A stretch of DNA of 39,089 nt from Thermoleophilia bacterium (GCA_025928655.1 JAICJC010000020.1:1-39089), one strand, 5' to 3'; positions 18,061 through 35,455 are shown, numbered from the stretch's first letter. Made by a program: numbers and translations. The notes: generated by a model from the letters alone, not told the origin.

Positions 18061-18825
18061 CTAGTACGCCATCCAGCCGCCGTCGACCATCAGGTTCGCG
18101 CCGCTCGTGTAGCTCGCCTCGGAGGCCATGTAGGCGACCGCCGCGGCCACGTCCTCGGCCCGGCCGAGGCGCGAGAACGGCGTCCGCGACCTGACGTAGG
18201 CAAGGCCGGCCTCGTCGGCGCTCAGATCGCCGGGGGTGCCGGTCACGATCTTCCCCGGCGACACGGAGTTGCACAGGATCCCGTCGGCGCCGTGCTCGAC
18301 GGCGATCTGGCGCGTCATCTGCAGCAGCCCGCCCTTGGAGACGGCGTAGGAGAAGTGGCCCGGCGCCCCCACGAGGCCGTGCTGGGAGGTGATGTTCACG
18401 ATCCGCCCGCGCACCTCGTCCCGGGGCGGCTGCCCGAGCATCTGCCGCACCGCCGCCCGGGAGAGGATGAAGGCCCCGCGCAGGTTCACGGCCATCACGG
18501 TGTCGAAGTCGGCCACCTCCGTGTCGACGAGCGGCTTGGAGTGGCGGCCCGCGATGGCCGCGTTGTTGACGAGCACGTCGAGCCGGCCGGCCCGGTCGAC
18601 GGCGATCGCGACCAGCCGCTCGCAGTCCTCGGGAAGGGCGACATCCGCGGCGACGTGCAGCGCCTTCCCGCCCGCCGCCGCGATCACGGCCTCGGTCGGA
18701 TCGCCGCCCGTGATCGGATCCCTGCGGACGTCGGCGCAGACGACGTCGAAGCCGTCCGCCGCGAGCCGGATCGCGATCGCGCGGCCGATGCCCGACGAGG
18801 CGCCGGTGATGACGGCGCCGCTCAC
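18061..18825 (-). CDS. SDR-family oxidoreductase (paralog of 14256-15038)
   Basis: 'VITGASSGIGRAIAIRLAADG', 'NITSQHGLVGAPGHFSYAVSKGG', 'LMVDGGWMAY'; GTG start 18825. Confidence 0.92.
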   Translation of the reverse strand: MSGAVITGASSGIGRAIAIRLAADGFDVVCADVRRDPITGGDPTEAVIAAAGGKALHVAADVALPEDCERLVAIAVDRAGRLDVLVNNAAIAGRHSKPLVDTEVADFDTVMAVNLRGAFILSRAAVRQMLGQPPRDEVRGRIVNITSQHGLVGAPGHFSYAVSKGGLLQMTRQIAVEHGADGILCNSVSPGKIVTGTPGDLSADEAGLAYVRSRTPFSRLGRAEDVAAAVAYMASEASYTSGANLMVDGGWMAY

Positions 18826-20159
18826 CCGCCCACCGCCAGGTAGGCGCCGCGATGCTCCTCGCCGATGAAGGTGCCGTCCTCGACGACGTGCACGCCCCGC
18901 GCCAGCACGTGCCGGATCCGGCCCGGCAGCTCGAAGCCGTCGTACGGCGTCCAGTCGAGCCCGTCGCCGAGACCCTCGAGCGTGATCGCGCTGGGCGCCG
19001 CCGGGTCCCACACCACCAGGTCGCCGTCGTTCCCCGGGGCGACCGCCCCCTTGCCCGGGAGGCCGAAGATCCGGGCCGGCGCCGCGCAGGCGACCTCGAC
19101 GAGCCGCTCGACCGTCAGCCCGTCCTCGCCCGCGAGCGCGAGCCCGATCGGCAGCCGGGCGGCGATGCCCGGGACGCCGGTCGGCACCCTGGTGAAGTCG
19201 TCCGCGACGGGCACCTTGTCGCGGTCGAGGCGCAGGTGGCAGTGGTCGGAGGCGTACGTGTCGAGCCCGCCGCGGACGAGCCCGCCCCGCAGCGCCGCCC
19301 GGTCGCCGGGCGAGCGCAGCGGCGGCGTCATCACGTAGCGAAGCGCGTCGTCGCCGTGGTGGCACGACTCGTCGAAGAGCAGGTGGTGGACGCAGGCCTC
19401 GCCGTACACCGCCTGGCCGCGGCCGCGCGCAGCGGCGAGCTCCTGCATGGGGCGGCTGCCGGTCACGTGCACCACGTAGGCGGTCGATCCCGCCACCTCG
19501 GCCATCGCCAGGAACCGGTGCACGCACTCGGCCTCGAGCGCGATCGGGCGGCTGCGCGGGAGCGACCCCAGGCCCATCTCGCCGGCGGCGACGAGCTCCC
19601 GGGTGAGCACGTCGATGACCCGGCCGTTCTCGCAGTGCGCGAGCACGACCATGCCGAGCGCCGCCGCCTCCTGCATCACCGCGAACGCCACGTCGTCGTC
19701 GGCCATGATCCCGAGCTCGATGTAGGCCAGCCACAGCTTCACGCTGCCGACGCCGAGCGCGTGCACGTCGCGCATGTCGCCGGGGCGGTAGGCCTCCGGC
19801 TCCCAGATCACCGTGTGCAGGGCGACGTCGGCGTGCGCCTTCGGCAGCTCGTCCGCGATCGTGCGGCGGGCCGCCTCGACCGGGCGCTCCCCCGGCTCGG
19901 CGTCGACGAACGCGAGCATCGAGGTCGTGCCGCCGAGCAGGGCGGAGCGGGTGTCGTCGGCGACCGCGCCGAAGATGTGCGTGTGCACGTCGATCGCCCC
20001 CGGCAGCACCAGACAGCCGGACGCGTCGACGACCTCCGCGCCCGTGCGGTCGACCTCCCCCACCGCGGCGATCGCGCCGTCGCGGACGAGCACGTCGCCC
20101 GCGACCGAGCCCGACGGGGACACGATCGTCCCCCCGACGACCGCCGTGACCGCGCTCAC
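18822..20159 (-). CDS. Dihydropyrimidinase / D-hydantoinase-like amidohydrolase
   Basis: 'GAIDVHTHIFG', candidate carboxylated Lys 'GVGSVKLWLAY', 'VVLAHCEN', 'VVHVTG', 'TYASDHC', 'KGAVAPGNDGDLVVWDP'; GTG start 20159. Confidence 0.88.
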   Translation of the reverse strand: MSAVTAVVGGTIVSPSGSVAGDVLVRDGAIAAVGEVDRTGAEVVDASGCLVLPGAIDVHTHIFGAVADDTRSALLGGTTSMLAFVDAEPGERPVEAARRTIADELPKAHADVALHTVIWEPEAYRPGDMRDVHALGVGSVKLWLAYIELGIMADDDVAFAVMQEAAALGMVVLAHCENGRVIDVLTRELVAAGEMGLGSLPRSRPIALEAECVHRFLAMAEVAGSTAYVVHVTGSRPMQELAAARGRGQAVYGEACVHHLLFDESCHHGDDALRYVMTPPLRSPGDRAALRGGLVRGGLDTYASDHCHLRLDRDKVPVADDFTRVPTGVPGIAARLPIGLALAGEDGLTVERLVEVACAAPARIFGLPGKGAVAPGNDGDLVVWDPAAPSAITLEGLGDGLDWTPYDGFELPGRIRHVLARGVHVVEDGTFIGEEHRGAYLAVGG

Positions 20160-21952
20160 AGGGCGCCGTCGGGGAGGCAGGGAGCCGCGGCCAGCAGCCG
20201 CCGCGTGTAGTCGTGGCTGGGCTGCGCCAGCACCTCCGACACCGTCCCGGTCTCGCACAGGGAGCCACGGTCCATCACCAGGACGGAGTCGGCGATGCAG
20301 GCGACGACGCCCAGGTTGTGGGTGATGAAGAGCATCGACAACCGCAGGTCGCGCTGCAGCTCCTGCAGCAGCTCGAGCACGGCCGCCTGCACCGAGACGT
20401 CGAGCGCCGAGGTGACCTCGTCGCAGACGAGCAGGTCGGGGCGGGCGGCCAGGGCGCGCGCGATCGCCACCCGTTGGCGCTCGCCGCCGGAGAGCTCGAC
20501 GGGGAAGCGCTCGCCGAGCCGCGCCGGCAGCTTGACCCGCTCGAGCAGCTCGCCGACCTCCCTCTCCGCCTCGGCCCGCGACAGGCGGCGCAGGACCCGC
20601 AGCGGCCGGATGATCGACGAGCGCACCCGCTGGCGCGGGTTGAGCGACTCGAACGGGTTCTGGAACACGATCTGGATCCGCCGCCGCACCTCGAGCGGGC
20701 GCCTGCGGGCGGTGCCGGCGATGGGGACGCCGTCGAAGCTGATGGTGCCCGCGGCCGGAACGTGCAGGCCGGCGATGCAGCGGCCGATGGTCGTCTTGCC
20801 GCTGCCCGACTCGCCGACGAGGGCGACGCAGCGGCCCTGCTCGACCGCGAACGAGACATCCGCGACGGCCGGGGCTCCCGACCGGCTCGACCGGTAGCGG
20901 GCCTCCAGGCCCGACACCTCGAGCAGCGGCGCCGACTCGACCGCGACCCCCGCCGCCCGGCCGTTGCTGCGCTCACCGGCCTGCAGGTCGAGCTCCATCC
21001 ACCGCAGGCAGCGGACGTGATGGCCCGGCACCGTCTCCTCGAGCACCGGCACGGTCTCGTGGCAGCGCGTCTGCTCGTAGGCGCAGCGGGGCGCGAAGGC
21101 GCAGCCGTTCGGCCACTCGCCGACGCCGACCGAGACGCCGGTGATCCCCCGCAGCGCCCGCGGCTTGCGGAAGTCGGGGATCGCCTCGACCAGCGCGCGC
21201 GTGTACGGGTGGCGGGGCCGCTCGAGCACGTCGGACGCCTGGCCGTTCTCGACGACGCGGCCGGCGTACATCACGGTGATGCGGTCGGCGCGCTGCGAGA
21301 CGACCGCCAGGTCGTGGGTGACGTAGACCATCGCCATGCCGTCCTCGTCCCGCAGCCGCCGCAGCTCGGCCAGGATGCGGTCCTGGGTGAGCACGTCGAG
21401 GCCGGTGGTGGGCTCGTCCAGGACGGCGACCGGCGGGTCGCACACGCACGCCATCGCGATCGTCACCCGCTGCTGCTGGCCGCCGGAGAGCTGGTGCGGG
21501 TAGCGGCCGGCGAAGCGCGGATCGCGCCCGAGCTCGACCCGCTCGAGCGCCGCGCGCACGGACTCGGCCGCCGCCCCGCCGCGGCGGTGGGCGCGCAGCA
21601 CGTCCAGGATGGCGTCGCCGACCCGCATCGACGGGTTGAGCGCGCCGCCCGGGTCCTGGGGCACGTACGACACCGTGTTGCCGCGCAGGCCGCGCAGCGC
21701 CCGCCGGTCGCGGCCGAGCACGCTCTCCCCGCCGACCTCGACGGTCCCGCCCCGCACCACAATGCCCCGGCGGGTGTAGCCGAGCAGGGACAGCGCCGTG
21801 GTCGTCTTGCCGCTGCCGGACTCGCCGACCAGCCCGACGATCTCGCCCGGCCCGACGCTGAAGGTGACGCCGTCGACGACCGGCTCGCCGCTCTGCAGGC
21901 CGAGACACAGGTTCTCGACCCGCACGACCGGCTCCACGGCCACGGCGCTCAC
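20156..21952 (-). CDS. Fused dipeptide/oligopeptide ABC transporter ATP-binding protein (DppD-DppF type)
   Basis: Two NBDs: 'GESGSGKTTTALSLLG'/'LSGGQQQRVTIAMA' and 'GESGSGKTTIGRCIAG'/'LSGGERQRVAIARAL'; Cys-rich oligopeptide tail in the middle. Confidence 0.94.
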   Translation of the reverse strand: MSAVAVEPVVRVENLCLGLQSGEPVVDGVTFSVGPGEIVGLVGESGSGKTTTALSLLGYTRRGIVVRGGTVEVGGESVLGRDRRALRGLRGNTVSYVPQDPGGALNPSMRVGDAILDVLRAHRRGGAAAESVRAALERVELGRDPRFAGRYPHQLSGGQQQRVTIAMACVCDPPVAVLDEPTTGLDVLTQDRILAELRRLRDEDGMAMVYVTHDLAVVSQRADRITVMYAGRVVENGQASDVLERPRHPYTRALVEAIPDFRKPRALRGITGVSVGVGEWPNGCAFAPRCAYEQTRCHETVPVLEETVPGHHVRCLRWMELDLQAGERSNGRAAGVAVESAPLLEVSGLEARYRSSRSGAPAVADVSFAVEQGRCVALVGESGSGKTTIGRCIAGLHVPAAGTISFDGVPIAGTARRRPLEVRRRIQIVFQNPFESLNPRQRVRSSIIRPLRVLRRLSRAEAEREVGELLERVKLPARLGERFPVELSGGERQRVAIARALAARPDLLVCDEVTSALDVSVQAAVLELLQELQRDLRLSMLFITHNLGVVACIADSVLVMDRGSLCETGTVSEVLAQPSHDYTRRLLAAAPCLPDGAL

Positions 21953-22797
21953 GACGTGACGCTCCGGGTCGTGCGCGGGACGTAGGAGCGGCCGAGGCTG
22001 CGGGCGATCGCATCGCCGGTCAGGTTGATCCCGATCGTGAGCAGGCCGATCATGGCGGCGGGCACCAGCACCGAGAACGCGTTCAGCTGGATGTAGGTGC
22101 GGTTCTCGCTGATCATGAGCGCCCAGTCGGAGTTCGGCGGCTGCAGGCCGAGGCCGAGAAAGTTGACGGAGGCGATGATCAGGATCGAGTACGTGAACCG
22201 CAGGCCGGCGTCCACGAGCACCGGCGCCAGGATGTTCGGGAGCACCTCGCGGCCGACCACCGCGAACGCGCGCTCGCCGCGGGCGATGCCCGCCTCGACG
22301 TAGCCGCGGGTCGAGACCTCGAGCGTGGCGGTGCGCACGATGCGGCTGATGGCGGGCGCCTGGATGGCCGCGACGCCGATGATCAGCACCGTGATGCTCG
22401 TCCCGGCGCCGGCGATCAGCACGAGCAGGAACAGCAGCGGCGGGAAGGCGAGCATCACGTCGACCGTGCGCATTAGCACCGGGTCGACCATCGAGCGGGT
22501 GTACCCGGCGATGAGCCCGATGGCCATCCCGACGAGGTAGGCGAGCACGGTGGCCGCCGCCGCGTACCCGATCACCGACCGGCCGCCGTTGAGGACGCGG
22601 CTCAGCACGTCGCGGCCGAGGAAGTCGGTGCCGAGCCAGGCGTGGCTCGAGGAGCCGGTCAGGGGGATGCCGACCGGCGCGGTCGGGTCGTGCGGCGCCA
22701 GGTAGGGCCCGAGGGCGGCGACGAGCACGACGAAGAGGACGATTCCGCCGCCGATGGCGCCGGACGGCGTGCGCAGAAACCTCAAGGCGTCGCTCAC
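21949..22797 (-). CDS. Dipeptide-type ABC permease (DppC-like)
   Basis: 'LGTDFLGRDVLSRVLNGGR', EAA loop 'YVEAGIARGERAFAVVGREVLPNILAPVLV'; GTG start 22797. Confidence 0.92.
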   Translation of the reverse strand: MSDALRFLRTPSGAIGGGIVLFVVLVAALGPYLAPHDPTAPVGIPLTGSSSHAWLGTDFLGRDVLSRVLNGGRSVIGYAAAATVLAYLVGMAIGLIAGYTRSMVDPVLMRTVDVMLAFPPLLFLLVLIAGAGTSITVLIIGVAAIQAPAISRIVRTATLEVSTRGYVEAGIARGERAFAVVGREVLPNILAPVLVDAGLRFTYSILIIASVNFLGLGLQPPNSDWALMISENRTYIQLNAFSVLVPAAMIGLLTIGINLTGDAIARSLGRSYVPRTTRSVTS

Positions 22798-23804
22798 GCC
22801 GGCTCCCGCAGCTTGGGGACGAGCAGCATCACGACGAGGTCGGCGAGCAGGTTGAGGAGGACGTACACCACGGCGATCAGCATCGCGACCGACTGGACGA
22901 CGGTCACGTCGCGGTTCTGGACCGCGTTCACGAGCGCCGTCCCGATGCCCGGGTAGGCGAACACGCTCTCCGTGATGATGATGCCGCCGATCAGCCACTG
23001 CAGGTTCTGGGCCAGCACCTGCACGCTCGGCGCCAGGGCGTTGCGCAGCGCGTAGCGCCACAGCACCCGCCGCTCGGCGACGCCGTTCAGGCGCGCGGTC
23101 TGGACGTACTCGGTCTGCAGCACCTCGGTCATCCCCGCCCGCACCATGCGCACGCCGGCCGCGAGCGAGGCGAACAGCAGCGTGAGCACCGGCAGCACCA
23201 GCTCGGAGGGGTTGTCGAGCGGGTTCGCGCCCGGCGGCACGATCGCGACCGGCGGCAGCCAGTCGAGCCCGACGAAGAACACGCCGATCAGGAGCGACCC
23301 GGTCACGAACTCGGGCAGCGCGATCGCCCCCAGCGACAGGATGGAGATGGCGTGGTCGACCGCCTTGCCGGAGTAGATCGGGCCGATCACCCCGAGGCCG
23401 ATCGAGAGGGGGATCATGAAGAGGGCCGCGATCGCCGCCAGGATGGCCGAGTTCTTGAGCGGCCCGGAGATCTGGTGCCAGACCGTCTCGTGCTGGCCCT
23501 GGGCGAGGCTCACCGCCGAGAGCCCCAGGTCGCCGTGCAGGAACCCGCCCAGCCAGTCGGCGTAGCGGGCGGCGGCGGGCCGGTCGAGCTGCATCCGCTT
23601 CGTCAGCACCGCCTCGGCCTGCGGCGTCGCGTTCCGGCCCAGGATGACGCTGGCCGGGTCGCCCGGCAGGACGTTCAGCGCCGCGAAGATCAGGATCGAG
23701 GCGACGAAGAGCGCGACGAGCCCGCCGAGGAGGCGGCGGCCGAGGAACGCCAGCACCGGCGAGGTCTCTCGCCGGACGACCCGCGGCTCCGCTGCCGCGG
23801 TCAC
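22794..23804 (-). CDS. Dipeptide-type ABC permease (DppB-like)
   Basis: 'LNVLPGDPASVILG', EAA loop 'YVQTARLNGVAERRVLWRYALRNALAPSVQ', 'IIITESVFAYPGIGTALVNAV'. Confidence 0.92.
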   Translation of the reverse strand: MTAAAEPRVVRRETSPVLAFLGRRLLGGLVALFVASILIFAALNVLPGDPASVILGRNATPQAEAVLTKRMQLDRPAAARYADWLGGFLHGDLGLSAVSLAQGQHETVWHQISGPLKNSAILAAIAALFMIPLSIGLGVIGPIYSGKAVDHAISILSLGAIALPEFVTGSLLIGVFFVGLDWLPPVAIVPPGANPLDNPSELVLPVLTLLFASLAAGVRMVRAGMTEVLQTEYVQTARLNGVAERRVLWRYALRNALAPSVQVLAQNLQWLIGGIIITESVFAYPGIGTALVNAVQNRDVTVVQSVAMLIAVVYVLLNLLADLVVMLLVPKLREPA

Positions 23805-23823: not shown

Positions 23824-25440
23824 TTACGTGAGCCACGCGTTCATGAAGAGGTAGTTGCCGAGCGCGCCGGCGGCGTGCGGCTTCAGGCCCTGGACGTTCT
23901 TGGACACCGCGTCGACCCAGTCGGCGTTCACCCACTGCAGGTAGCCGCCGGTGTCGTACTGGATCTGCTGCACCTGGTTCCAGTAGTTCTGGGCCTGGGT
24001 CTTGTCGAGGGCGCCGATCGCCTTCGCGAGGGCGTCGCTGAAGGCGGCCGACTTGAAGTGCGTCTCGTTGTACGGCGCGTTGGACGAGAGCGCCTGGAGG
24101 TAGAAGTACTTCAGCGAGAGCATCGGCCACTGCGTCTCGGCGAACGCCATCTTCAGGTAGAGCAGGCTCGGGTTGTAGTACGAGTTGGCCGGCTCCTGCT
24201 TCAGCTTCACCGTCACGCCGGCCGCCTTCGCCTGCTGCGCGAAGAGCGTGGCCGACTCGACGAAGCCCGGGAAGATCTCCGACGTCTGGAACTCGACCGT
24301 CAGGTTCTCCTGCCCGGCCGCCTTCAGCAGGCTCTTGGCCTTGTCGATGTCCTGCACCCGCTGCGGCAGCGACTCGTCGTAGTACGGGAGGCCCTTGCCG
24401 ACGGTGTCGTTGCCGACGGTGCCGAAGCCGGAGATGGCGCTCTCGATCAGCGCCGGCCGGTCGGCGATCAGCCGGAAGGCCTGCCGCACCCGGTTGTCGG
24501 AGAACGGCGCCTTCTGCGTGTCCATGTAGAACATCATGGCCTGGGGCGAGGGGGCCACGAGGACGTTGATGTCGCCCGACGCCTGGTGGGCCTTGGCCTC
24601 CTGGAACGGGAGCTGCGCCAGGCCGTCGATCTGGCCGGCGACGAGGGCGTTCAGGCGCGCCGTCGGGTCGGTGATCGAGGTGATCTTGAGCGAGTCGACG
24701 TACGGCTTGCCGTCGACCCAGTAGTTCGGGTTGCGCTTGAAGACGCTCTGCTGGCCGGGCGTGAACGACTCGAAGGCGAAGGGGCCGGTGCCGATCGGGC
24801 TCTTGTAGTCGGTCTGCCGGGCCGGGACGATCCACGTGTTGTAGTAGGTGAAGTTCGCCGCCAGGTCGCCGTCGGGCGTCTTCAGCGGGATCCGCACCAG
24901 GTGCTTGTTGATCGCCTTCATGTTGGCGACGTCGATGCCCGACACGAACGGGTAGGAGCCGAAGTTCGCCGGCTTCGCCATCTGCTGGATCGAGTAGATG
25001 ACGTCGTCGGCGCCGAAGGACTTGCCGTTGTGGAAGACCACGCCGTCGCGCAGCTTGACCTCGTACACGGTCCCGTCGGAGTTGGGATTCCACTCGAGCG
25101 CCAGCCCGGGCGACGTCGTGAGGTCGGGGTTCACGATCACGAGCGGGTCGTACAGGTTCTGGATCCGGCCCTCGTCGATCGGCGTGACGCCGATGAACGG
25201 GTCGACCGTCTCGGCGGTGCCGCCGCTGACGAAGCCGAGCTTCAGCTGGCCGCCGCGCTTGGGCGCGCCGGCCGACGTCGAGACGGGGGAGCTCGCGCTC
25301 GCGCCCCCTCCGCAGGCCGCGGCCAGGAGCGGCGACATGCCGATGCCGAGCGCGGCGGCGCCCTTCAGGAGGCCTCCGCGGGAGAAGCGGCCGTCGAGGA
25401 GGTCGGGCCCGTTGGGTTGGTCGTCTGAGCGGTCGGTCAC
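23824..25440 (-). CDS. ABC transporter solute-binding lipoprotein, family 5
   Basis: Lipobox-like 'LLAAACGGG'; 'YDPLVIVNPDLTTSPGLALEWNPNSDGTVYEVKLRDGVVFHNGKSFGADDVIYSIQ'. Confidence 0.92.
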   Translation of the reverse strand: MTDRSDDQPNGPDLLDGRFSRGGLLKGAAALGIGMSPLLAAACGGGASASSPVSTSAGAPKRGGQLKLGFVSGGTAETVDPFIGVTPIDEGRIQNLYDPLVIVNPDLTTSPGLALEWNPNSDGTVYEVKLRDGVVFHNGKSFGADDVIYSIQQMAKPANFGSYPFVSGIDVANMKAINKHLVRIPLKTPDGDLAANFTYYNTWIVPARQTDYKSPIGTGPFAFESFTPGQQSVFKRNPNYWVDGKPYVDSLKITSITDPTARLNALVAGQIDGLAQLPFQEAKAHQASGDINVLVAPSPQAMMFYMDTQKAPFSDNRVRQAFRLIADRPALIESAISGFGTVGNDTVGKGLPYYDESLPQRVQDIDKAKSLLKAAGQENLTVEFQTSEIFPGFVESATLFAQQAKAAGVTVKLKQEPANSYYNPSLLYLKMAFAETQWPMLSLKYFYLQALSSNAPYNETHFKSAAFSDALAKAIGALDKTQAQNYWNQVQQIQYDTGGYLQWVNADWVDAVSKNVQGLKPHAAGALGNYLFMNAWLT

Positions 25441-25618: not shown

Positions 25619-25634
25619 GGTATGCGATCATACC
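25619..25634. promoter_or_regulatory. Candidate GntR operator GGTATGCGATCATACC (site A)
   Basis: Perfect 6-bp inverted repeat, 4-bp centre, 20 nt upstream of ATG 25654; shares core with sites at 31478 and 35438. Confidence 0.75.
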
Positions 25635-25653
25635 GGACTCCCCCGACGAAAGG

Positions 25654-26529
25654 ATGTTCGCCGTGGACGCAACGCTTCTGGCCTCCGGCCTCGGGTTTCC
25701 CGAAGGTCCCGTCGTCATGCCCGATGGCGCAATCGTGTTCTGCGACGGGAACACCGGCGAGCTGCGCAGCTGGAAGGACGGCGCGCTCGGCACGTATGCC
25801 GTCACCGGCGGTTCACCGTGGGGCGCCCTGCTCGGCACCGACGGGGCGATCTACGTTACCCAGGGCGGCAACGTCCCGGGCAGCGGCGATGAGAGCGCCG
25901 TCTGCGGCATCCAGCGCGTGAACGCCGACGGGTCGGTCGAGCTGCTCGTGTCGAACATCGGCGACCACGACCTGGCCGGGCCCAACGACCTCGCGTTCGG
26001 GACCGACGGGCGGCTGTGGTTCACCGACTCGGGCACCGAGCAGGACGACCGCTTCGCGCCCGAGGATCGCGCTCCCGGGCGGCTCTTCGTCCTCGGCCCC
26101 GGCGGCGAGGGCGAGTTCCTGATGGAGCGGCCGAACACCTACCCGAACGGCATCGCGTTCGACGCCGACAAGCGGCTCTACTGGACGGAGTCAGCCGCGC
26201 ACCGGGTATGCCGGCTCGACGACGGCGAGGCGACGACCTGGTGCCAGCTCTCCGACGGCCACGTGCCCGACGGCATGGCGTTCGCCGCCGACGGCCGCGC
26301 GTTCGTCTGCACCACCATCTCGGGCGGCGTGACCGTGATCTCGCCCAACGGCGAGGTGCTCGAGGAGATCAGCCTCGACCAGCACGCGACGAACTGCATC
26401 TTCGACGGCTCGGCGCTCTACGTGACGGCGACGGCGACCGCGGAGATCCACGCCGACGAGCGCACCGGCACGTTCTGGCGGGTCGAGACGGACGCCACCG
26501 GACTGCCGCTCATCCCCGGCCGGCTCTAG
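25654..26529 (+). CDS. SMP-30/gluconolactonase-like beta-propeller hydrolase
   Basis: 'LLASGLGFPEGPVVMPDGAIVFCDG', 'GPNDLAFGTDGRLWFTDSG', 'NTYPNGIAFDADKRLYWTES', 'PDGMAFAADGRAFV'. Confidence 0.9.
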   Translation: MFAVDATLLASGLGFPEGPVVMPDGAIVFCDGNTGELRSWKDGALGTYAVTGGSPWGALLGTDGAIYVTQGGNVPGSGDESAVCGIQRVNADGSVELLVSNIGDHDLAGPNDLAFGTDGRLWFTDSGTEQDDRFAPEDRAPGRLFVLGPGGEGEFLMERPNTYPNGIAFDADKRLYWTESAAHRVCRLDDGEATTWCQLSDGHVPDGMAFAADGRAFVCTTISGGVTVISPNGEVLEEISLDQHATNCIFDGSALYVTATATAEIHADERTGTFWRVETDATGLPLIPGRL

Positions 26530-27560
26530 CCCGGGGACAGTCCCCGCCCGGGGGCTGTCCCCACTTCCACCTCGCCGCCCGTCGCGATCGCCGACTCGCA
26601 GGCGAGCGCGACCGCGAGCGTGCCGAGCGCGTCGCGCGGCGTGCATACGACGGCGGCCGCGTCGCCGCGCCCGGCCGCGGCGAAGAAGCGCTCGTGGGTG
26701 TGCAGGCGGGCGTCGAGAGTGTCGGCGGCCACGATCGTCCGGCCCTTCGCCCGCCCTCTCAGCGTGGGTGCCTTGCCCAGGTCGAGCGCGAGCGTCGCCT
26801 CCGAGGCGAGCACATCGAGGGTGTAGACGCTCGGCGAGCCCTCGGCCGACCAGCCGACGTGGATCGCCCCGATGCCGCCGTCGCGGAAGCGCAGCGTCGC
26901 CGAGACGGCGTCGTGGCGGCCGGCGGGGTCGCGGCCGGCCAGGGCGAGCCGGCCGGCGCCGGCGGTCGCCTGCACCGCCGCGACCTCCCCGGCCAGCGCC
27001 CGCTGGACGTCGATGTCGTGGCTGCCGAGCTCGAACAGGATGCCGCCGCTCTGGCGCGGGTCGGAGAACCACGATCCGGCCGCGGCGGCGCTCAGATCCC
27101 CGCGCGCGGGCTCGGTGCCGCCGAAGCTGCGGCTGACGAGCAGGCCCGGGGCCGACCCGGCCAGCGCCTCGCGGGCGGCCGCCACCACGTCGAGGCTGCG
27201 CCACTGGTAGCCGATCGCGCACACGCATCCCGACGCCTCCCAGGCGGCCACGATCTCACGGCCATCGTGGAGCGAGCGGGCGAGCGGCTTCTCCAGGTAG
27301 ACCGGGATGCCGCGCTCGAGGGCGGCGCACGCGGGCGCCGCGTGGGTCGCCGGCGGGGAGCAGACGAAGAGCGCATCCATGCGAACGGTCTCGAGCATCG
27401 GACGCCAGTCGGCGTGCACCTCGGCGCCAATCGGCGCGGCCAGCGCCCGGGCCCGCTCGGGCAGCGGGTCGCAGGCGGCGACAACCTCGTGGCCGAGCGC
27501 GCCCAGGTGCTCGAGGTGGGTGCGGGCGATCGCGCCCGCACCGACGATCGCGACCCTCAC
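26526..27560 (-). CDS. Gfo/Idh/MocA-family oxidoreductase (paralog 1)
   Basis: 'VAIVGAGAIARTHLEHL', 'FVCSPPATHAAPACAALERGIPVYLEKPLAR', 'GGILFELGSHDIDVQRAL'; GTG start 27560. Confidence 0.9.
   Translation of the reverse strand: MRVAIVGAGAIARTHLEHLGALGHEVVAACDPLPERARALAAPIGAEVHADWRPMLETVRMDALFVCSPPATHAAPACAALERGIPVYLEKPLARSLHDGREIVAAWEASGCVCAIGYQWRSLDVVAAAREALAGSAPGLLVSRSFGGTEPARGDLSAAAAGSWFSDPRQSGGILFELGSHDIDVQRALAGEVAAVQATAGAGRLALAGRDPAGRHDAVSATLRFRDGGIGAIHVGWSAEGSPSVYTLDVLASEATLALDLGKAPTLRGRAKGRTIVAADTLDARLHTHERFFAAAGRGDAAAVVCTPRDALGTLAVALACESAIATGGEVEVGTAPGRGLSPG
26533..26562. repeat. Two adjacent family-1 palindromes (26533-26545 GGGGACAGTCCCC; 26550-26562 GGGGGCTGTCCCC variant)
   Basis: Read directly; lies within the last codons of the minus-strand Gfo/Idh gene. 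Confidence 0.85.
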
Positions 27561-27952
27561 CGCTCCGGCCGGCGCAGGAACTGATACTGCACCCCGCCGC
27601 TCGTGGCCGCGTCCGTCCAGATCATCATCGCGTCGCCGGACGGGAAGGGCGGCCAGGTGATGTCGACGCCGCGCCCGGTCAGGGTCCGGTGCACCGCCTC
27701 GAGGTCGTCCACCTCGATCGCGATGTGCTCGATGACGGCGTCGGCACCGTCCGGCAGCCGGCGGGCGCGGGCCTCGTCGTCGTGCACCTCGATCAGCTCG
27801 ATGCTGGCATCGCCGCAGGGGAAGTAGTGACCCGTGCTCTCGTCGTTGCGGTTCGCGCGCGCGAGCTCCAGGCCGAGGGCGCCGAGCAGCTCGGCCTGGT
27901 CGCCCAGCCCGCGCACGACGATGCCGACGTGATCGATGCGCCGCAGCTTCAT
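27557..27952 (-). CDS. VOC/glyoxalase-superfamily protein (methylmalonyl-CoA epimerase-like)
   Basis: 'RRIDHVGIVVRGLGDQAELLGALGLEL', 'IEHIAIEVDDLEAVHRTLTGRGV'. Confidence 0.85.
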   Translation of the reverse strand: MKLRRIDHVGIVVRGLGDQAELLGALGLELARANRNDESTGHYFPCGDASIELIEVHDDEARARRLPDGADAVIEHIAIEVDDLEAVHRTLTGRGVDITWPPFPSGDAMMIWTDAATSGGVQYQFLRRPER

Positions 27953-28935
27953 GGGACCGAGACGACCGTCCCGCTCTCGAGCGCCCGCTCGCAGGCGAGC
28001 GCCACCCGCAGCGTCCCCAGGGCATCCCTCGGCGTGCAGGGGACGGCGCCGGGGTCGCCGCCGCGCACCGCCTCCAGGAACCGGGCGATCGACCGGTGCA
28101 TCGGCTCGCCGTACTCGGCGGCGAGGTCGCGGCCGCCCGCGCGACCGGTGATGCGGAACCGCTCGGGGCCGAGCTCGAGCGCGATCGTCGCGTCGGCGGC
28201 GAGGATGTCGACCGCGTAGAGCTCGGGCTGCCCGTCGCGCGACCACGCGGTGTGCACGCACCCGAGCGCGCCGCTCGCGAAGTGGAACACCAGGGTGATG
28301 GCGTCCTCGATGTTGCCGCGCGGCCCGTCGGCCTGGGCCAGCCGCACCGATGCGGCGGTCGCCTGCACGGCGGCGATGTCGCCCGCGATCGCCCGCTGGA
28401 GGTCGATGTGGTGGCTGCCGCGCTCAAGCAGCTGGCCGCCGCCCTGGGCCCGGTCCATGAACCACGGCCGCCCGCTCACCGGGCCGAAGTTGCGGCCGAC
28501 GAGCATGCCGGCCCGCTGGCCCTCGAGCGCCCGGCGGACGTCGGCGAGCAGCTCGGTCGCGTGCCACTGGTAGCCGACCGCGCAGACCGTCCCGGGGGCC
28601 GCGGCCGCCGCCGCGACGATCGCCTCCGCGTCGCCGACCGTGCGGGCGATCGGCTTCTCGAGGTAGACGTGGATGCCGCCTTCGAGCGCCGCCAGGGTCG
28701 GGGCGCGATGGTGCAGGGGCGGGGTGCACACCCAGACGACGTCGAGCTCCTCGCGCTCGTACATCTCCTCCCAGCTCGTGTACGCGCGGCCTCCGCGCGG
28801 GCCGGCCAGCGCCTGGGCGCGGTCGAGCTCGATGTCACAGACGGCGACCAGGTCGACGCCGTCGGCGGCGTCGATGGCCGGTGCGTGGACGCGGGTGATC
28901 CAGCCGCCCCCGATCATCCCGGCCCGCAGGGACAT
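27949..28935 (-). CDS. Gfo/Idh/MocA-family oxidoreductase (paralog 2)
   Basis: 'GMIGGGWITRVHAPAI', 'GGIHVYLEKPIARTVGDAEAIV', 'ERGSHHIDLQRAI'; shares 'CTPRDALGTLxVALACExA' with paralog 1. Confidence 0.9.
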   Translation of the reverse strand: MSLRAGMIGGGWITRVHAPAIDAADGVDLVAVCDIELDRAQALAGPRGGRAYTSWEEMYEREELDVVWVCTPPLHHRAPTLAALEGGIHVYLEKPIARTVGDAEAIVAAAAAAPGTVCAVGYQWHATELLADVRRALEGQRAGMLVGRNFGPVSGRPWFMDRAQGGGQLLERGSHHIDLQRAIAGDIAAVQATAASVRLAQADGPRGNIEDAITLVFHFASGALGCVHTAWSRDGQPELYAVDILAADATIALELGPERFRITGRAGGRDLAAEYGEPMHRSIARFLEAVRGGDPGAVPCTPRDALGTLRVALACERALESGTVVSVP

Positions 28936-29912
28936 CAGCCGCCCCGGTCGGCGAGGTCGAGCAGCACCTTCCCGAACTTGCCCGGAGCGCGGACGTAGTC
29001 GAGGGCGGCGACCGCCTCGTCCAGCGGGAAGGCCCGGTCGACGATCGGCCGCACCTTGCCGGCGGCCATCGCCGGCACGATCCGGCGCCCAAACTCCTGC
29101 ACCAGACGCGCCTTCTCCTCCAGCGGCCGCGTGCGCAGGGTCGTCCCCATCAGGCGGCCGCGGCGGCTCATCAGGTCGCGCAGGACGATCGTCGCCTCGT
29201 CGCCCGGCTTGGCGCCGACGACGATGATGCGCCCGCCGCGGGCGAGCGACGCGACGTTCCCGGCCATGTGCGGCGCGCCCACGAGCTCGAGCACGACATC
29301 GGCGCCGCCCTCCTCCTGGACGTGCGCGAACGCCTCGTCGGCCTGAAGGGCGGTCGCCCCCAGCTCGGCGACGCGGGGCCGCAGCTCCTCCGAGCGCACG
29401 TTGGCCACCACCCGCGCGCCCAGGTGGACGGCGATCTGCACCGCCGCCGTCCCGACGCCGCCGCTGGCGCCGTTCACGAGCAGGGTGTCGCCCGAGCCGA
29501 GCCCGGCCTGGAGGCAGATGGCGTCGAACGCGGTCAGGAACGCCTCCGGGGCGGCCGCGGCCGCCTGGTCGTCGAGCGCGTCCGGCACGGCGAAGAGCTC
29601 GCGCTCGTGCGCGATCACGCGCCCCGCGAGGCCACCGCCGCTGACGAGGCCGAAGGCGCGGTCGCCCTCGGCGAAGGCGGTCACGCCCTCGCCGCACGCG
29701 ACCACGCGGCCGCCCACCTCGAGCCCGGGGACATCCTTCGGCGTGCCGGCCGGCACCGGGTGCTTGCCCTCGCGTTGGAGCACGTCGGCGGGGTTCACGC
29801 CCGCGTAGGCGGGCTCGATCGCGACCTCGAACCGGCCCGGCACCGGGTCGGGCCGCTCCTCGATCGCGACCACCTCGGGCCCGCCGACCCCGTGATAGAC
29901 GACGCACCTCAC
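28935..29912 (-). CDS. NADPH:quinone oxidoreductase-like MDR protein
   Basis: 'YAGVNPADVLQREG', 'LLVNGASGGVGTAAVQIAVHLGARVVANV'; no structural zinc Cys cluster seen; GTG start 29912. Confidence 0.9.
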   Translation of the reverse strand: MRCVVYHGVGGPEVVAIEERPDPVPGRFEVAIEPAYAGVNPADVLQREGKHPVPAGTPKDVPGLEVGGRVVACGEGVTAFAEGDRAFGLVSGGGLAGRVIAHERELFAVPDALDDQAAAAAPEAFLTAFDAICLQAGLGSGDTLLVNGASGGVGTAAVQIAVHLGARVVANVRSEELRPRVAELGATALQADEAFAHVQEEGGADVVLELVGAPHMAGNVASLARGGRIIVVGAKPGDEATIVLRDLMSRRGRLMGTTLRTRPLEEKARLVQEFGRRIVPAMAAGKVRPIVDRAFPLDEAVAALDYVRAPGKFGKVLLDLADRGG

Positions 29913-30823
29913 GCCGGCGGATAGTGGTCGAGCCACCACCGGGCGATGTCCGCCCGGCGCATGAACTTCACGCCCGGGATGCCCTGGGCGTGCTCGATGA
30001 ACCGGCGCACGACGGCGGCGCGGCCGGCCTGGCCGCTCCAGCGGGCGTGCACCGCGAAGGTCATCAGCGACGGCCGCTCCTGCCCTTCGCGGGCCAGCTC
30101 GTCGATGCCCCAGACGGCGGTGTCCAGGAAGTCGCGCGGGCTGGAGAAGCCGGGGCTCATCAGGTACCGGGAGTCGTTGTAGGTCTTCGAGTAGGGCACC
30201 ACCAGGAACGGCTTGCCGCCGATCGGCTCGTAGTAGGGCACGTCGTCGGAGTAGCCCTCGGAGTGGTACAGGAAGCCACCCTGCTCGAGCAGGAGCTCGC
30301 GCGTGTTCTCGCTCGGCCAGGAGCGGGAGTTCCACCCCTCGGGCGGCCGGCCGAGCACGCGCTCGTAGGTCTCGACGGCGCGGCCGATCGTCTCGCGCTC
30401 CTCGTCCCGGCTCATCGTCCAGGGCTCGTTCCAGCGCCAGCCATGACCGAGCAGGTCGTGGTCGTGCGCGCGCATCCACTCGGCCACCGCCGGGTTCAGC
30501 TCGAGGGCGACGGCCGCGGCCGACACCGTCACCGGGACGTTCGCCGCGTCGAAGATGCGCGCCAGCCGCCACACGCCGGCCCGGCTGCCGTACTCGTAGT
30601 GCGACTCGGTGCCGGGGTCGCGGTGGGGCGGCTGGACGCCGGGGTCGGCGTACTCGCCCCAGCCGTCGTTGCGGTCGTCGCCCCAGAGCACGGAGTACTC
30701 GGACCCCTCCTCGTACACGAGCACGAGGTTGACGACGACGCGGGCGCCGTCGGGCCACTCGAACCGCGGCGGGCTCGGGCCGTACCCGACCAGGTCGCGC
30801 CCCCGTACCGGCTCCGGGATCAC
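29909..30823 (-). CDS. Polysaccharide deacetylase-family protein, PuuE/allantoinase-like
   Basis: 'RVVVNLVLVYEEGSEYSVLWGD', 'HDHDLLGHGWRWNEPWTMSRDEERETIGRAVETYERVLGRPPEGW'; GTG start 30823. Confidence 0.85.
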   Translation of the reverse strand: MIPEPVRGRDLVGYGPSPPRFEWPDGARVVVNLVLVYEEGSEYSVLWGDDRNDGWGEYADPGVQPPHRDPGTESHYEYGSRAGVWRLARIFDAANVPVTVSAAAVALELNPAVAEWMRAHDHDLLGHGWRWNEPWTMSRDEERETIGRAVETYERVLGRPPEGWNSRSWPSENTRELLLEQGGFLYHSEGYSDDVPYYEPIGGKPFLVVPYSKTYNDSRYLMSPGFSSPRDFLDTAVWGIDELAREGQERPSLMTFAVHARWSGQAGRAAVVRRFIEHAQGIPGVKFMRRADIARWWLDHYPPA

Positions 30824-31449
30824 GCCGGCCCCATCTCGGAGAAGGCCGGCCGCGCCGTCACGGTGTCGCGCAGGAGCGCCACCTTCGGCCACGGCTCGAA
30901 GGAGAGCGGCATCTTGTACCACCGCCACAGCACCGGCGCGAAGGCGATGTCGGCCAGCGTGAAGGTGCCGACGACGGTGCCGTTGTCGGCCACGAACGAC
31001 TCCATGATGTCCCACTTCGGCCGGGTGGTATCGATCGCGGCGGCCAGCTCGTCCTGGTCGGCGTCCTCGGGCCGGCTCCCGCCGTCGTCGATCGGCGTGG
31101 CCATGAGCGCGATCCGCTCGGCGGGGAAGAACGCGCCCCGAAACTGCGTGCTCCACGCGTCGAGGCCCCAGTCGACGGCAGCGCGCGCCTCCGGCTCGGT
31201 CGGGTACAGGTCGGTGCGGCCCTCGCGGCCGGCGAGGTAGCGCAGGATCGCGTTCGACTCGCCCAGCTCCAGGTCGCCGTCCTCGAAGAACGGGACGGTG
31301 CCGAACGGGTAGCGCTCCCGGTACCAGCCGGGGCGGGGATGCGCGAGCGGGACGTGCCGGCGCTCGTAGTCGAGGCCGAGCTCGGCCAGCAGGAACCGGA
31401 CCTTCATGGCGTTCGACGAGGCCGGATTGTCGTAGAGCACGATCCCCAT
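30820..31449 (-). CDS. Glutathione S-transferase-like protein
   Basis: 'IVLYDNPASSNAMKVRFLLAELGLDYERRHV', 'FGTVPFFEDGDLELGESNAILRYLAGR'. Confidence 0.85.
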   Translation of the reverse strand: MGIVLYDNPASSNAMKVRFLLAELGLDYERRHVPLAHPRPGWYRERYPFGTVPFFEDGDLELGESNAILRYLAGREGRTDLYPTEPEARAAVDWGLDAWSTQFRGAFFPAERIALMATPIDDGGSRPEDADQDELAAAIDTTRPKWDIMESFVADNGTVVGTFTLADIAFAPVLWRWYKMPLSFEPWPKVALLRDTVTARPAFSEMGPA

Positions 31450-31477
31450 CAGCCCTCCCGGGGCGGGTCACCCAACC

Positions 31478-31493
31478 GGTATGCCATCCTACC
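31478..31493. promoter_or_regulatory. Candidate GntR operator GGTATGCCATCCTACC (site B)
   Basis: One mismatch in the right arm; 29 nt upstream of the GST start. Confidence 0.65.
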
Positions 31494-31517
31494 TGGTCGC
31501 GGCGGCCGGGCACGCGG

Positions 31518-31949
31518 TCATACGGGGATGACGTCTGCGGTGACGTGCAGCGCCACCGTGCCGGAGATCGCCTGGCACACGGGGCAGTGGCGGCCGGCAT
31601 CGTCGACGAGCTTGCGCACGTCGTCCTCACGCGCCGGCGTCGCGATCACGGCGTGCAGCGTCGCGTCGGAGAGGTGATGGTGGGCGTCGTCGTCCCACGC
31701 GAGCTTGGCCGAGACGGTCGTCTCGATCTCGGCCAGGTCGACTCCGCGCGCGCGGGCCATCCCGGTCAGGGTGGACGTGAAGCAGTTCGCGAGCGCCGCC
31801 GAGAAGAGCTCCTCCGGGTTCGACTCGCCGCCCGGCCCGCCCAGCTCGGACTGGGTGGCGGTCGCCACCGAGAGCGCGCCCGAGCCGCCCTCGATGCGGC
31901 CGCGCAGTCCCTCCCACCGAAGTGTCGCGGTGGCGCTGAGCGATTCCAT
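31518..31949 (-). CDS. OsmC-family peroxiredoxin-like protein
   Basis: 'ESNPEELFSAALANCFTSTLTGMARARGVDL', 'DAGRHCPVCQAIS'. Confidence 0.9.
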   Translation of the reverse strand: MESLSATATLRWEGLRGRIEGGSGALSVATATQSELGGPGGESNPEELFSAALANCFTSTLTGMARARGVDLAEIETTVSAKLAWDDDAHHHLSDATLHAVIATPAREDDVRKLVDDAGRHCPVCQAISGTVALHVTADVIPV

Positions 31950-32014
31950 CGCCCGAGTTTAGCCCGTGGTAGGTTTGCCGCATCGAGCCCCAGGAGCACA
32001 CCGACCATGCGAGC

Positions 32015-32722
32015 GTGTTCTCGGCCGTCGATCGGGACGCGCGGCTGTCGGACAAGGTGACCGAGGCGATCCTGCAGACGATCGTGTCGAACCGGCTCAA
32101 GCCGGGCGACGCGCTCCCGCCGGAGCGTGAGCTCGGGAAGCAGTTCGGCGTGTCGCGCACCGTCATCCGGGAGGCGATCCGGGCGCTGCACGCGAAGGGG
32201 CTGCTCGAGGTCAGGAGCGGCAGCGGGGTGCGGATCGTCGCCGTCGACGCGAAGACCGTGCGCGAGTCGATGCGCCACTTCGTCAAGGGCAGCATGCTCG
32301 AGTACGCGAAGGTGGACGAGGTGCGGCGGGTGCTCGAGGTGGCGGCGGCCGGGATCGCCGCCCAGCGGGCGACGCCCGAGGACCTCGAGCGGATCGACGC
32401 CACGCTCGCGCAGATGGGCGACAGCGTCGACGACCTGCCCACGAGCATCGAGGTCGACCTCGCCTTCCACCGCGCCATCGCAGCGGCCACGCACAACGAG
32501 CTCTTCAACGTCCTCCACGACTCGATCGGCGAGATGCTGGTCGAGGTGCGGCGGCGCAACCTCTCGCTCGGCCCCGACGAGCGCCGGCGCGTGATCGACA
32601 TGCACCGCGCCATCCGCGACCGGGTCGCCGAGCACGACCCGGCGGCCGCCCAGCAGGCGATGCACGACCACCTGGACCACGTCCAGGCGACGTATGGCCG
32701 GCAGGCGCCCGAGCTGGCCTAG
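32015..32722 (+). CDS. GntR-family transcriptional regulator, FadR/FCD subfamily
   Basis: N-terminal wHTH 'LSDKVTEAILQTIVSNRLKPGDALPPERELGKQFGVSRTVIREAIRALHAKGLLEVRSGSGVRI'; C-terminal helical FCD with 'DLAFHRAIAAATHNELF' and 'HRAIRDRVAEHDPAAAQQAMHDHL'. Confidence 0.95.
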   Translation: MFSAVDRDARLSDKVTEAILQTIVSNRLKPGDALPPERELGKQFGVSRTVIREAIRALHAKGLLEVRSGSGVRIVAVDAKTVRESMRHFVKGSMLEYAKVDEVRRVLEVAAAGIAAQRATPEDLERIDATLAQMGDSVDDLPTSIEVDLAFHRAIAAATHNELFNVLHDSIGEMLVEVRRRNLSLGPDERRRVIDMHRAIRDRVAEHDPAAAQQAMHDHLDHVQATYGRQAPELA

Positions 32723-32739
32723 CGCTGATCGCTCGCGGC

Positions 32740-33447
32740 ATGAGTCGATCCGTGGTCGAACGTCTGGCGCTGGATGCAGGGATCGGCATGGGCGCGCGGG
32801 CGGACGAGAAGGGCGGACTCCGCAAGCTTGGCGAGAAGGCCGATCTGGAGCCGGTCGTCGTCGACGTGCTGCGAGCAACTCTTCCTGACTGGCACGTTGA
32901 GAAAACGCGGAAGACGAGAATCCCGCGCTGGAGTCGCGCGGGCACCGTCGACGTCCGCGTGCGGCAGGAATTGGGGTCAAGCGCCCTCCTGCTTGCAGGC
33001 GAGCTCAAGTGGTGCGGAGCGGGCCAGATGTATGAAGCCATCTGGGACCTGTTCAAGATGGCTCTGCTTGCACTGCGCGAGGATGCCGGGACGACCTTTC
33101 TCCTGACCGGTGCACCGAGCTCGAAGTGGCAGGCGGACCCATGCCGCGACCTTTTTGAGGACCGGATTCACGAGCCGCTGGAGCTGTTCGACCGTCGCTT
33201 TCCGACCGGCAAGGGCCGCCTGATGTGGGACGACCTGCTCGAAGGCGGCTATGACCGCTACCCTGACGCGGTACCTGCCCGCATTCGCACAGCGGTGATC
33301 GCGGACGAGCCGATCGAGCATCCCGCGGGTGACTGGGCCATCCGCGCGGTTGAGGTCACGCCCCTCGAAGGCTTCATCCCGATTCGAGCTGGCTGGCCGA
33401 ACGGCGAGAGGCCCGCGGATGCGACCCGCCCACTCGCGAAGCCGTGA
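32740..33447 (+). CDS. Uncharacterised protein with PD-(D/E)XK nuclease-like motif
   Basis: 235 aa; 'GTVDVRVRQELGSSALLLAGELKWC' gives D71-x16-E88-L-K90 with flanking beta-strand-like segments; no other family recognised. Confidence 0.55.
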   Translation: MSRSVVERLALDAGIGMGARADEKGGLRKLGEKADLEPVVVDVLRATLPDWHVEKTRKTRIPRWSRAGTVDVRVRQELGSSALLLAGELKWCGAGQMYEAIWDLFKMALLALREDAGTTFLLTGAPSSKWQADPCRDLFEDRIHEPLELFDRRFPTGKGRLMWDDLLEGGYDRYPDAVPARIRTAVIADEPIEHPAGDWAIRAVEVTPLEGFIPIRAGWPNGERPADATRPLAKP

Positions 33448-33782
33448 CCAACGCCTGGGCGAGCGCCGGATGGACACGCCCGATCCGCTCGGAGATGATC
33501 CCACTGGGAATGGATCGATTCGAGCTGGGGGTACCGCCAGACGTTCACGGCCCCGCACCTGTTCAAGGGCAGGGCCGCTCCCGAGGCTGGCGACGGATGG
33601 CCCGCGGCCGCATCCGCTGGTACGACGACGGGGTGGTGCGCGACTGGCCGGGGAAGTGGCGCATCAGCTTCCGCGAGGGCCTCACCGCGTCCGTCACCGC
33701 GGAGCACGACGCGGACGGGGACCCCACCGGGCATCCTAGTCCCCGCGGCCCAGCGCCAGCTCCGGCTCCTCGTGCGTCATGA
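33444..33782 (+). CDS. Small ORF of uncertain status, coupled to the PD-(D/E)XK-like gene or a decayed fragment
   Basis: GTGA overlap with the preceding stop; overlaps the 3' end of the TPP gene by 47 nt; no family recognised. Confidence 0.3.
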   Translation: MTNAWASAGWTRPIRSEMIPLGMDRFELGVPPDVHGPAPVQGQGRSRGWRRMARGRIRWYDDGVVRDWPGKWRISFREGLTASVTAEHDADGDPTGHPSPRGPAPAPAPRAS

Positions 33783-35376
33783 CCTCGAGCAGGGCCGTCC
33801 GGCCTGACTCCACGGCCTTCGCGCAGCGACCGATCGCGGCCCGCAGCTCGGCCGCCTCGGCGACCCGCTCCGTGTAGGCGCCGAGGGCCGCCCCGACCGC
33901 CGCGTAGTCGCCGCTCATGCGGTGGGCGTCGTAGCGCTCGACGGCCCGCGGCATGTACTCGCCGTACCCGCCCATGAGCCCGTTGTTCATGACGATCGTC
34001 AGGATCGGGATGCCGCAGCGGACGGCCGTCTCGACGTCCATCCCGACCATTCCGAAGGCGGCGTCGCCCATGATGTTCACCGCCAGGCGGTCGGGCCGGG
34101 CGAGCCGCGCGCCCATCGTCAGGCCAAGGCCGGTGCCGAGCTGGGTGGACTTGCCCCAGCCGAGATAGCCACGTGGCACGAGCGTCTCGTAGAAGGGCAC
34201 GATCTGGTCGCGGGGATGACCCGCATCGTGGGTGACGACCGTGCGCGAACGGTCGACCGCGGCCATCAGATCCCACACGACCCGGTAGGGGCTGATCGGG
34301 CCCGCGTCCGACGTTAGGCGCGGCATCCACCGGTCGAGGAACCCCGAGCGCACCCGGGCGACCTCGGGCGCCGGGTCGCGCGCCGGTGCCGCCTCGGCGC
34401 CGAGCCGGTCGAGCATCTGGCGCAGGACGACCCGGGCGTCGCCGACACAGCCGAAGGCGACGTCGTACCCGGTACCGAGGTCGCGCGGATCGGCCACGAT
34501 CTGCCCCAGGGTGGCCGACTCCGGCAGCGGCGTGATGTAGAGCGAGCGGGTAAAGCTCGTGCCCACCCCGAGCACGACGTCGGCCTCGCCGAGGAAGCGG
34601 TCGACCGTCTCGGGGCGGGTGCGGGCGGCGGTGCCGAGCGCGAGCGGATGATCCTCGGGGAACGCGCTCTTGCCGTTCAGCGTCGTCGCGACCGGCGTGC
34701 CGGTGCGCTCGGCCAGGGCGACGAGCTCGTCGGTCGCTCCGGCGTAGAGGACGCCCTGCCCGGCCAGGATCACGGGCCGGGACGCCCCCGCCAGCATGCG
34801 CAGCGTCTCGGTCACGTCCTGCGGGTCGGCGGCCGAGAGCCGTCGCGGCCCGGAGGCGACATCCCACCCGGCCTCGCCGGCGGGCCCGCACATGACGTCG
34901 TGTGCGACCGCGACCAGGACCGGGCCCTCGCGGACGCAGCGCAGCCGGTGGAGCGCCCGCCGGAACACCTCTGGCGCGCGGGCGGCGTCGTTCACCGTCG
35001 CGGCGAAGCGGGTGACCGGCGCATATGCCGTCTCGGCGCGGAGGTTGGGCGGCTCCTGGGCCCCCCGGTCGTGCTCACCCGGGATGAGCAGCACCGGGCT
35101 GCGGTCGCTGTGTGCCTGGGCGACGGCCGCGAAGGCGGCCTCGACCCCGGGGCCGTACTGCGTGACGCAGGGTGCGATCCGCTCGCCGTTCGTCGCCCGG
35201 GCGAAGCCGTCGGCGATGTTGACCGCGACCCGCTCGGTGCGCGTGACGATCGGGCGGATCCCCAGCGCGGAGGCGGAGTCCAGCAGCCGGTTCTCGGGGA
35301 ATCCGGCCACGAACTCCGCCCCCTCACGCTGGAGGAGCTGCGCGATCCGGTCGGCGACGAGCGTTCCAGGTTCCAA
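33736..35376 (-). CDS. Thiamine-pyrophosphate-dependent enzyme (acetolactate synthase-like large-subunit family)
   Basis: 'RTERVAVNIADGFARATNGE', 'GPGVEAAFAAVAQAHSDRSPVLLIPGE', 'NIMGDAAFGMVGMDVETAVRCGIPILTIVMNN' (GDG-like TPP motif). TTG start at 35376 with upstream GAGGTG; ORF open to 35427. Confidence 0.9.
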   Translation of the reverse strand: MEPGTLVADRIAQLLQREGAEFVAGFPENRLLDSASALGIRPIVTRTERVAVNIADGFARATNGERIAPCVTQYGPGVEAAFAAVAQAHSDRSPVLLIPGEHDRGAQEPPNLRAETAYAPVTRFAATVNDAARAPEVFRRALHRLRCVREGPVLVAVAHDVMCGPAGEAGWDVASGPRRLSAADPQDVTETLRMLAGASRPVILAGQGVLYAGATDELVALAERTGTPVATTLNGKSAFPEDHPLALGTAARTRPETVDRFLGEADVVLGVGTSFTRSLYITPLPESATLGQIVADPRDLGTGYDVAFGCVGDARVVLRQMLDRLGAEAAPARDPAPEVARVRSGFLDRWMPRLTSDAGPISPYRVVWDLMAAVDRSRTVVTHDAGHPRDQIVPFYETLVPRGYLGWGKSTQLGTGLGLTMGARLARPDRLAVNIMGDAAFGMVGMDVETAVRCGIPILTIVMNNGLMGGYGEYMPRAVERYDAHRMSGDYAAVGAALGAYTERVAEAAELRAAIGRCAKAVESGRTALLEVMTHEEPELALGRGD

Positions 35377-35437
35377 GCGATCACCTCGGGGTCGCACAGG
35401 CCGGGCCCGCGGACGAGGCGGAGCCACGACCGGTATA

Positions 35438-35455
35438 CCGTATCATGGCATACGG
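35438..35455. promoter_or_regulatory. Candidate GntR operator CCGTATCATGGCATACGG (site C), next to GGTATACC (35432-35439)
   Basis: Perfect inverted repeat CCGTAT-N6-ATACGG; reverse-complement core GTATGCCATGATAC matches sites A and B; lies between the 35457 stop and the 35376 start. Confidence 0.75.

Follow-up and report, generated by a model that had tools for sequence, protein, structure and literature searches.

Three similar palindromes in a 39,089-nucleotide stretch of a Thermoleophilia genome (GCA_025928655.1, JAICJC010000020.1:1-39089; hereafter the window) lie in the promoters of three catabolic units. We consider it very likely that they are operators of the FadR-type GntR regulator encoded in their midst, and that the units together form a single degradation pathway. 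The regulon proposed in the original prediction was thus largely supported by sequence comparisons, namely the rarity of the motif in the genome, its conservation in promoters, and its association with this particular GntR. The genes and sites concerned are listed in Table 1.

Table 1. Predicted genes and putative operators of the three units and their regulator (positions in the window).
Feature	Position	Strand	Evidence or context
SDR dehydrogenase, unit 1 divergent operon	18061..18831	-	
Hydantoinase/dihydropyrimidinase-like amidohydrolase, unit 1	18822..20201	-	TIGR02033; D-hydantoinase structures
Double ABC ATPase, unit 1 divergent operon	20156..21952	-	
ABC permease, unit 1 divergent operon	21949..22869	-	
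ABC permease, unit 1 divergent operon	22794..23804	-	
Substrate-binding protein SBP_bac_5, unit 1 divergent operon	23824..25440	-	
Operator 1 (putative), GGTATGCGATCATACC	25619..25634	+	Between SMP-30 gene and divergent SBP/ABC operon
SMP-30/gluconolactonase-type lactonase, unit 1	25663..26529	+	PF08450
Gfo/Idh/MocA oxidoreductase, unit 2	26526..27614	-	
VOC/glyoxalase-fold protein, unit 2	27560..27961	-	
Gfo/Idh/MocA oxidoreductase, unit 2	27949..28998	-	
Quinone-oxidoreductase-like (QOR) protein, unit 2	28935..29966	-	
PuuE-like polysaccharide-deacetylase-fold hydrolase, unit 2	29909..30820	-	57-58% to Paracoccus and Rhizobium proteins
GST-like protein, first gene of unit 2	30820..31449	-	
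Operator 2 (putative), GGTATGCCATCCTACC	31478..31493	+	Upstream of GST-PuuE operon
GntR regulator, FadR/FCD subfamily	32015..32722	+	PF00392, PF07729; nearest solved relative NanR
TPP enzyme, PRK06154 family, unit 3	33736..35376	-	NF004807; 49-50% to Paracoccus/Rhizobium protein
Operator 3 (putative), CGTATGCCATGATACG	35439..35454	-	Upstream of TPP enzyme; then GGTATACC (composite)

The three palindromes quoted in the original prediction are present in the window exactly as given and where they had been placed, with 14-mer matches at 25620-25633 (+), 31479-31492 (+), and 35440-35453 (-). They can be extended to the 16-mers of Table 1. In full, the site measures about 16 bp and has the consensus GGTATGCNATCATACC, which corrects the shorter core described initially. 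As claimed, each lies in a promoter, just upstream of a predicted start (start codons are our reading of the sequence): operators 1 and 2 are 28 bp away from the GTG of SMP-30 (25663) and from the ATG of the GST gene (31449), respectively, and operator 3 is 62 bp away from the TTG of the TPP-enzyme gene (35376), which has AGGTGA before it.

The motif is rare. Allowing two mismatches, GTATGCSATSMTAC matches the window at the three sites only, when 0.46 matches are expected by chance. To measure rarity genome-wide we used pattern searches, with the reversed pattern as a control. With at most one mismatch, the 14-mer pattern occurs in the 3.69-Mb genome at the three sites only, and the control has no occurrence, so that the scan suggested along with the prediction revealed a near absence of the motif outside the cluster. 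The 16-mer has no match outside the cluster better than two mismatches, and the number of those with two is close to that of the reversed pattern. Because the pattern had been drawn from the sites themselves, we also computed a generic statistic on triples of palindromic 14-mers (5-bp arms with at most one mismatch, at least six A/T, mutual distance of at most 2). Exactly one such triple, formed by the three sites, exists in the window, and any triple was found in one of 200 Markov shuffles. These sites are confirmed as real and non-random.

To what extent are the sites kept in relatives? The GntR has an orthologue in four genomes of the family, counting that of the window, with identities of 100, 94, 75, and 71%. 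The genomes compared differ in completeness, those with named records being MAGs: G000 is the window's own genome, G002 is a close relative, and G004 belongs to another genus and has a rearranged gene order. When one mismatch is allowed, the pattern occurs 11 times in the four genomes, and 10 of these occurrences are inside the cluster; by our count, the 57 other relatives average roughly 0.4 occurrences per genome. Sites are found in G004 between SMP-30 and SBP, before PuuE, and before the TPP gene, and in G001 between SMP-30 and SBP and before the TPP gene; the counterpart of operator 2 was sought at the OsmC-GST-PuuE unit of G001 and is absent. A matrix trained on the window's three sites alone detected a site in all five orthologous promoters of G004 and G001, with scores of 18.4-22.0 that were reached in 0 of 500 shuffles each. 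Scores were 2.4-9.5 for the gntR/osmC intergenic regions and for seven further regions upstream of window genes. Hence, the expected conservation upstream of orthologues holds in the diverged relatives G004 and G001, whose GntR proteins are 75% and 71% identical to that of the window.

The 16-mer of operator 1 is identical at 16/16 positions in G002, 15/16 in G004, and 14/16 in G001, and that of operator 2 at 16/16 in G002 and 14/16 in G004. The flanks around these two operators are 60-74% identical in G002 and 36-55% in G004 and G001. An upstream extension of the SMP-30 frame would include operator 1, but this extension lacks conservation at the protein level in G004, and the identity of operator 1 is therefore a nucleotide-level one. 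The TPP promoter region has the composite GTATGCCATGMTACGGTATACC in G000, G002, and G004, and in G001 its site is displaced by several bases and has the opposite orientation. The matrix scan found no site in the gntR promoter of the window, nor one for autoregulation of gntR in the organism's family, and osmC (31518-31949), the gene that separates unit 2 from gntR, likewise lacks one. The proposal that the regulator controls all units is supported, with the qualification that the G001 GST/PuuE unit, gntR, and osmC have no site.

The 235-aa regulator was correctly recognized as a FadR/FCD GntR protein, with 82 bits for PF00392 and 93 bits for PF07729, both above the cut-offs. A structure model and a fold search agree with these profiles on an N-terminal GntR winged helix and a C-terminal FCD domain. 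The latter has the metal-ligand set D-x3-H, H, H (D148-H152-H197-H219), a pattern and spacing that we take to be those of TM0439; across 12 homologues D148 and H197 are invariant, and H152 and H219 nearly so. The window genome encodes 15 further GntR-type homologues. The regulator itself is narrowly distributed: homologues at E < 1e-45 were found in only nine of 129 genomes from the order, and a phylum-wide sample has none at E < 1e-40 besides the window genome. Directly 3' of gntR there is a 235-aa frame (32740-33447, +) that belongs to no Pfam family and is not matched in the stretches of G004 or G001.

Comparisons across genomes support the view that the motif accompanies this GntR and not just the enzymes. 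PuuE-like clusters without a close GntR orthologue nearby (G006, G029, G247, G283, G269, and G055:C246, with PuuE-like proteins 74-77% identical) have no strong site, the best score being 14.3, compared with 23.7-27.9 at the sites used for training. Upstream of gntR homologues with 41-54% identity, the window matrix scores higher than in the same regions of control genes, whose GntR proteins are less than 40% identical (Mann-Whitney p=6e-4). Most of these homologues adjoin different genes; the motif reads, for example, GGTACGCCATCGTATA in both G310 and G207. In G021 (GntR 51%) there are sites before gntR (5/500 shuffles) and before the SBP operon (0/500), and in G369 (GntR 48%) GGTATGCCATCATATC occurs in the divergent promoter adjoining gntR. 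The latter genome also has the perfect palindrome GGTATGATATCATACC upstream of an SDR gene, between it and a divergent gene (L151:9089-9104), with GGTATACC upstream nearby and a sugar-type ABC transporter close. One perfect 16-mer was found in a genome without a GntR orthologue, G003, between SBP_bac_8 and S15 peptidase genes (L069:7657-7672). Two symmetric variants, GGTATGCCGGCATGCC (L141:6416-6431) and GGTACGCCGGCATACG (L143:11326-11341), occur in PuuE-like clusters without a close GntR nearby and are perhaps recognized by another regulator.

A distance of 2-3 nt between GT and AC is common but not universal in FadR/FCD regulators, NanR and BioR being exceptions. The original prediction relied on the habit of the group of binding short palindromes with GT...AC half-sites. 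The half-sites are indeed present in GGTATGCNATCATACC, but GT and AC are 10 nt apart (GT-N10-AC) and not 2-3 nt as in most FadR-subfamily sites (PMC4494728), and this argument is therefore weaker than it sounded. The comparison with FadR, LldR, PdhR, GlcC, and VanR is similar: they share the GntR and FCD architecture, a GT...AC palindrome near promoters, and a local catabolic regulon, but differ in this spacing (PMC4494728). The centre of the site (C7, A9, T10) is conserved yet asymmetric. By sequence (E 1.8e-23) and by fold, the closest solved structure is that of NanR, the FCD GntR regulator of sialic acid in E. coli, which binds direct repeats of GGTATA, has a 32-residue N-terminal extension, and is proposed to contact bases through Arg59, Arg69, and Arg73 (PMC8012715). 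These arginines align with R38, R48, and R52 of the window GntR, and the half-sites are of the GGTAT type in both. The two systems differ in that the window half-sites are inverted, the proteins are only 29% identical, no sialic-acid genes are under the window sites, and the extension is missing here (the alignment begins at residue 10 of the window protein and 31 of NanR). The window GntR is also below the cut-off of the NanR family NF003011 (152 vs 260 bits). We favour a site made of two inverted NanR-like half-sites, GGTATG, that would be about one helical turn apart.

One may ask whether the sites are instead operators of another transcription factor encoded elsewhere, with the GntR gene merely adjacent and perhaps inherited together with the pathway. 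The spacing departs from what is typical of FCD regulators (PMC4494728), gntR has no site in the window organism's family, the perfect 16-mer of G003 occurs without a GntR orthologue, and paralogous regulators are many. Yet, GntR homologues with different neighbours have the motif at their own promoters, clusters of the same enzymes under other regulators lack strong sites, and the half-sites match those of NanR (PMC8012715), which makes this explanation unlikely in our view.

A core promoter element of co-expressed genes, such as an extended -10 or an alternative sigma site, would fit the distance of 28 bp to two start codons and the TANNNT-like hexamers inside the motif. Such an element should recur genome-wide, whereas only three near-matches were found, and the motif is an inverted repeat present in both orientations relative to transcription; we rejected this very improbable reading on these grounds. 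The possibility that three AT-rich palindromes look alike by chance, in a window rich in GC, deserved attention, given that the pattern was picked after the sites had been seen and that some such triple arises in 1/200 shuffles. It was discarded as having almost no probability, since the sites are rare in the genome and conserved in orthologous promoters (5/5, with 0/500 shuffles each), including those of a different genus, which were not used to define the pattern.

A single alphaproteobacterial operon with many of the same enzymes lends independent support to the claim that the GntR-associated units belong to one degradation pathway. This operon, present in Paracoccus aminophilus pAMI1 and Rhizobium leguminosarum, has counterparts from all three units, in the order GlxA regulator-SBP-permeases-ATPase-MFS-hydA-SDR-oxidoreductase-PuuE-TPP-dihydroorotase-SDR, and because parts of all three are joined there, units 1-3 would be one pathway. 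Besides the PuuE-like and TPP proteins (identities in Table 1), the SDR is 51-54% identical and the hydantoinase and ABC parts are homologous. The genes differ in being in a single operon beside a GlxA-type regulator gene and not GntR, and SMP-30, GST, and VOC had no match in the searched Paracoccus/Rhizobium stretch.

The profile scores make the amidohydrolase hydantoinase-like, as it is below the equivalog cut-off of TIGR02033 (324 vs 393 bits), and the PuuE-like protein is likewise below that of the PuuE allantoinase TIGR03212 (264 vs 425 bits); the TPP enzyme is above the cut-off of NF004807 (699 vs 607 bits). Upstream of the TPP gene, G004 encodes a member of the hydantoinase/carbamoylase amidase family (TIGR01879, with a score above the cut-off), and G000 and G002 encode another hydantoinase-like protein and a putative racemase-like one. 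The hydantoinase-, PuuE-, and N-carbamoylase-like enzymes suggest that the substrate may be a cyclic ureide or hydantoin-like compound, with ring-opening followed by decarbamoylation as the suggested chemistry. Searches of a collection of open-access papers on the motif, on hydantoin together with GntR, on GntR regulons of Thermoleophilia, and on the PuuE-TPP cluster returned nothing relevant.

Other genes in these neighbourhoods deserve mention. In G000 and G002, a 770-aa nSTAND3-type ATPase (35457-37769, - in the window) is encoded between the hydantoinase/racemase-like genes and the TPP gene; it is 70% identical between the two and has no match in the corresponding G004 and G001 stretches. 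The nSTAND3 family is better known from defence or signalling. Genes for an AMP-ligase-like protein, a citrate-synthase-like protein, and an SDR (12011-15038, +) have no site and possibly belong to a related metabolism; the regulon SDR of unit 1 shares 59% identity with the G002 counterpart of the SDR encoded here. The PuuE cluster of G247 contains a gene for a TudS-related putative desulfidase (L141:10346-10897), and that version of the pathway may therefore handle a thio-substituted ring.

We infer direct binding, repression, an effector, and a substrate as follows. The GntR would bind GGTATGCNATCATACC at, or close to, the transcription start of the three units and repress the SMP-30 gene with the divergent ABC transporter-hydantoinase-SDR operon, the GST-PuuE-QOR-Gfo/Idh-VOC-Gfo/Idh operon, and the TPP-enzyme gene. 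Repression is suggested by the habits of the family and by the position of two operators, each 28 bp away from a start codon. The GntR would be released when an intermediate of the pathway, probably a carboxylate, binds its metal-containing FCD domain. The controlled genes would import and degrade one compound, the core chemistry being the opening of a cyclic ureide or hydantoin ring. More broadly, we lean towards the idea that a Thermoleophilia FCD subfamily, with relatives in Chloroflexi MAGs, uses inverted 16-bp NanR-type GGTATR half-sites (GT-N10-AC) as a new operator architecture, to control a cross-phylum, uncharacterised cyclic-ureide/hydantoin-like pathway with lactonase, Gfo/Idh, and TPP-enzyme steps.

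An uncultured soil lineage thus gains a candidate regulator-operator pair. Much of the membership of the pathway is fixed, and its counterpart operon in Rhizobium and Paracoccus is genetically workable. If binding by the GntR is true, the range of operator spacings in FCD regulators would be widened and the prediction of regulons in GC-rich actinobacterial genomes would be aided.
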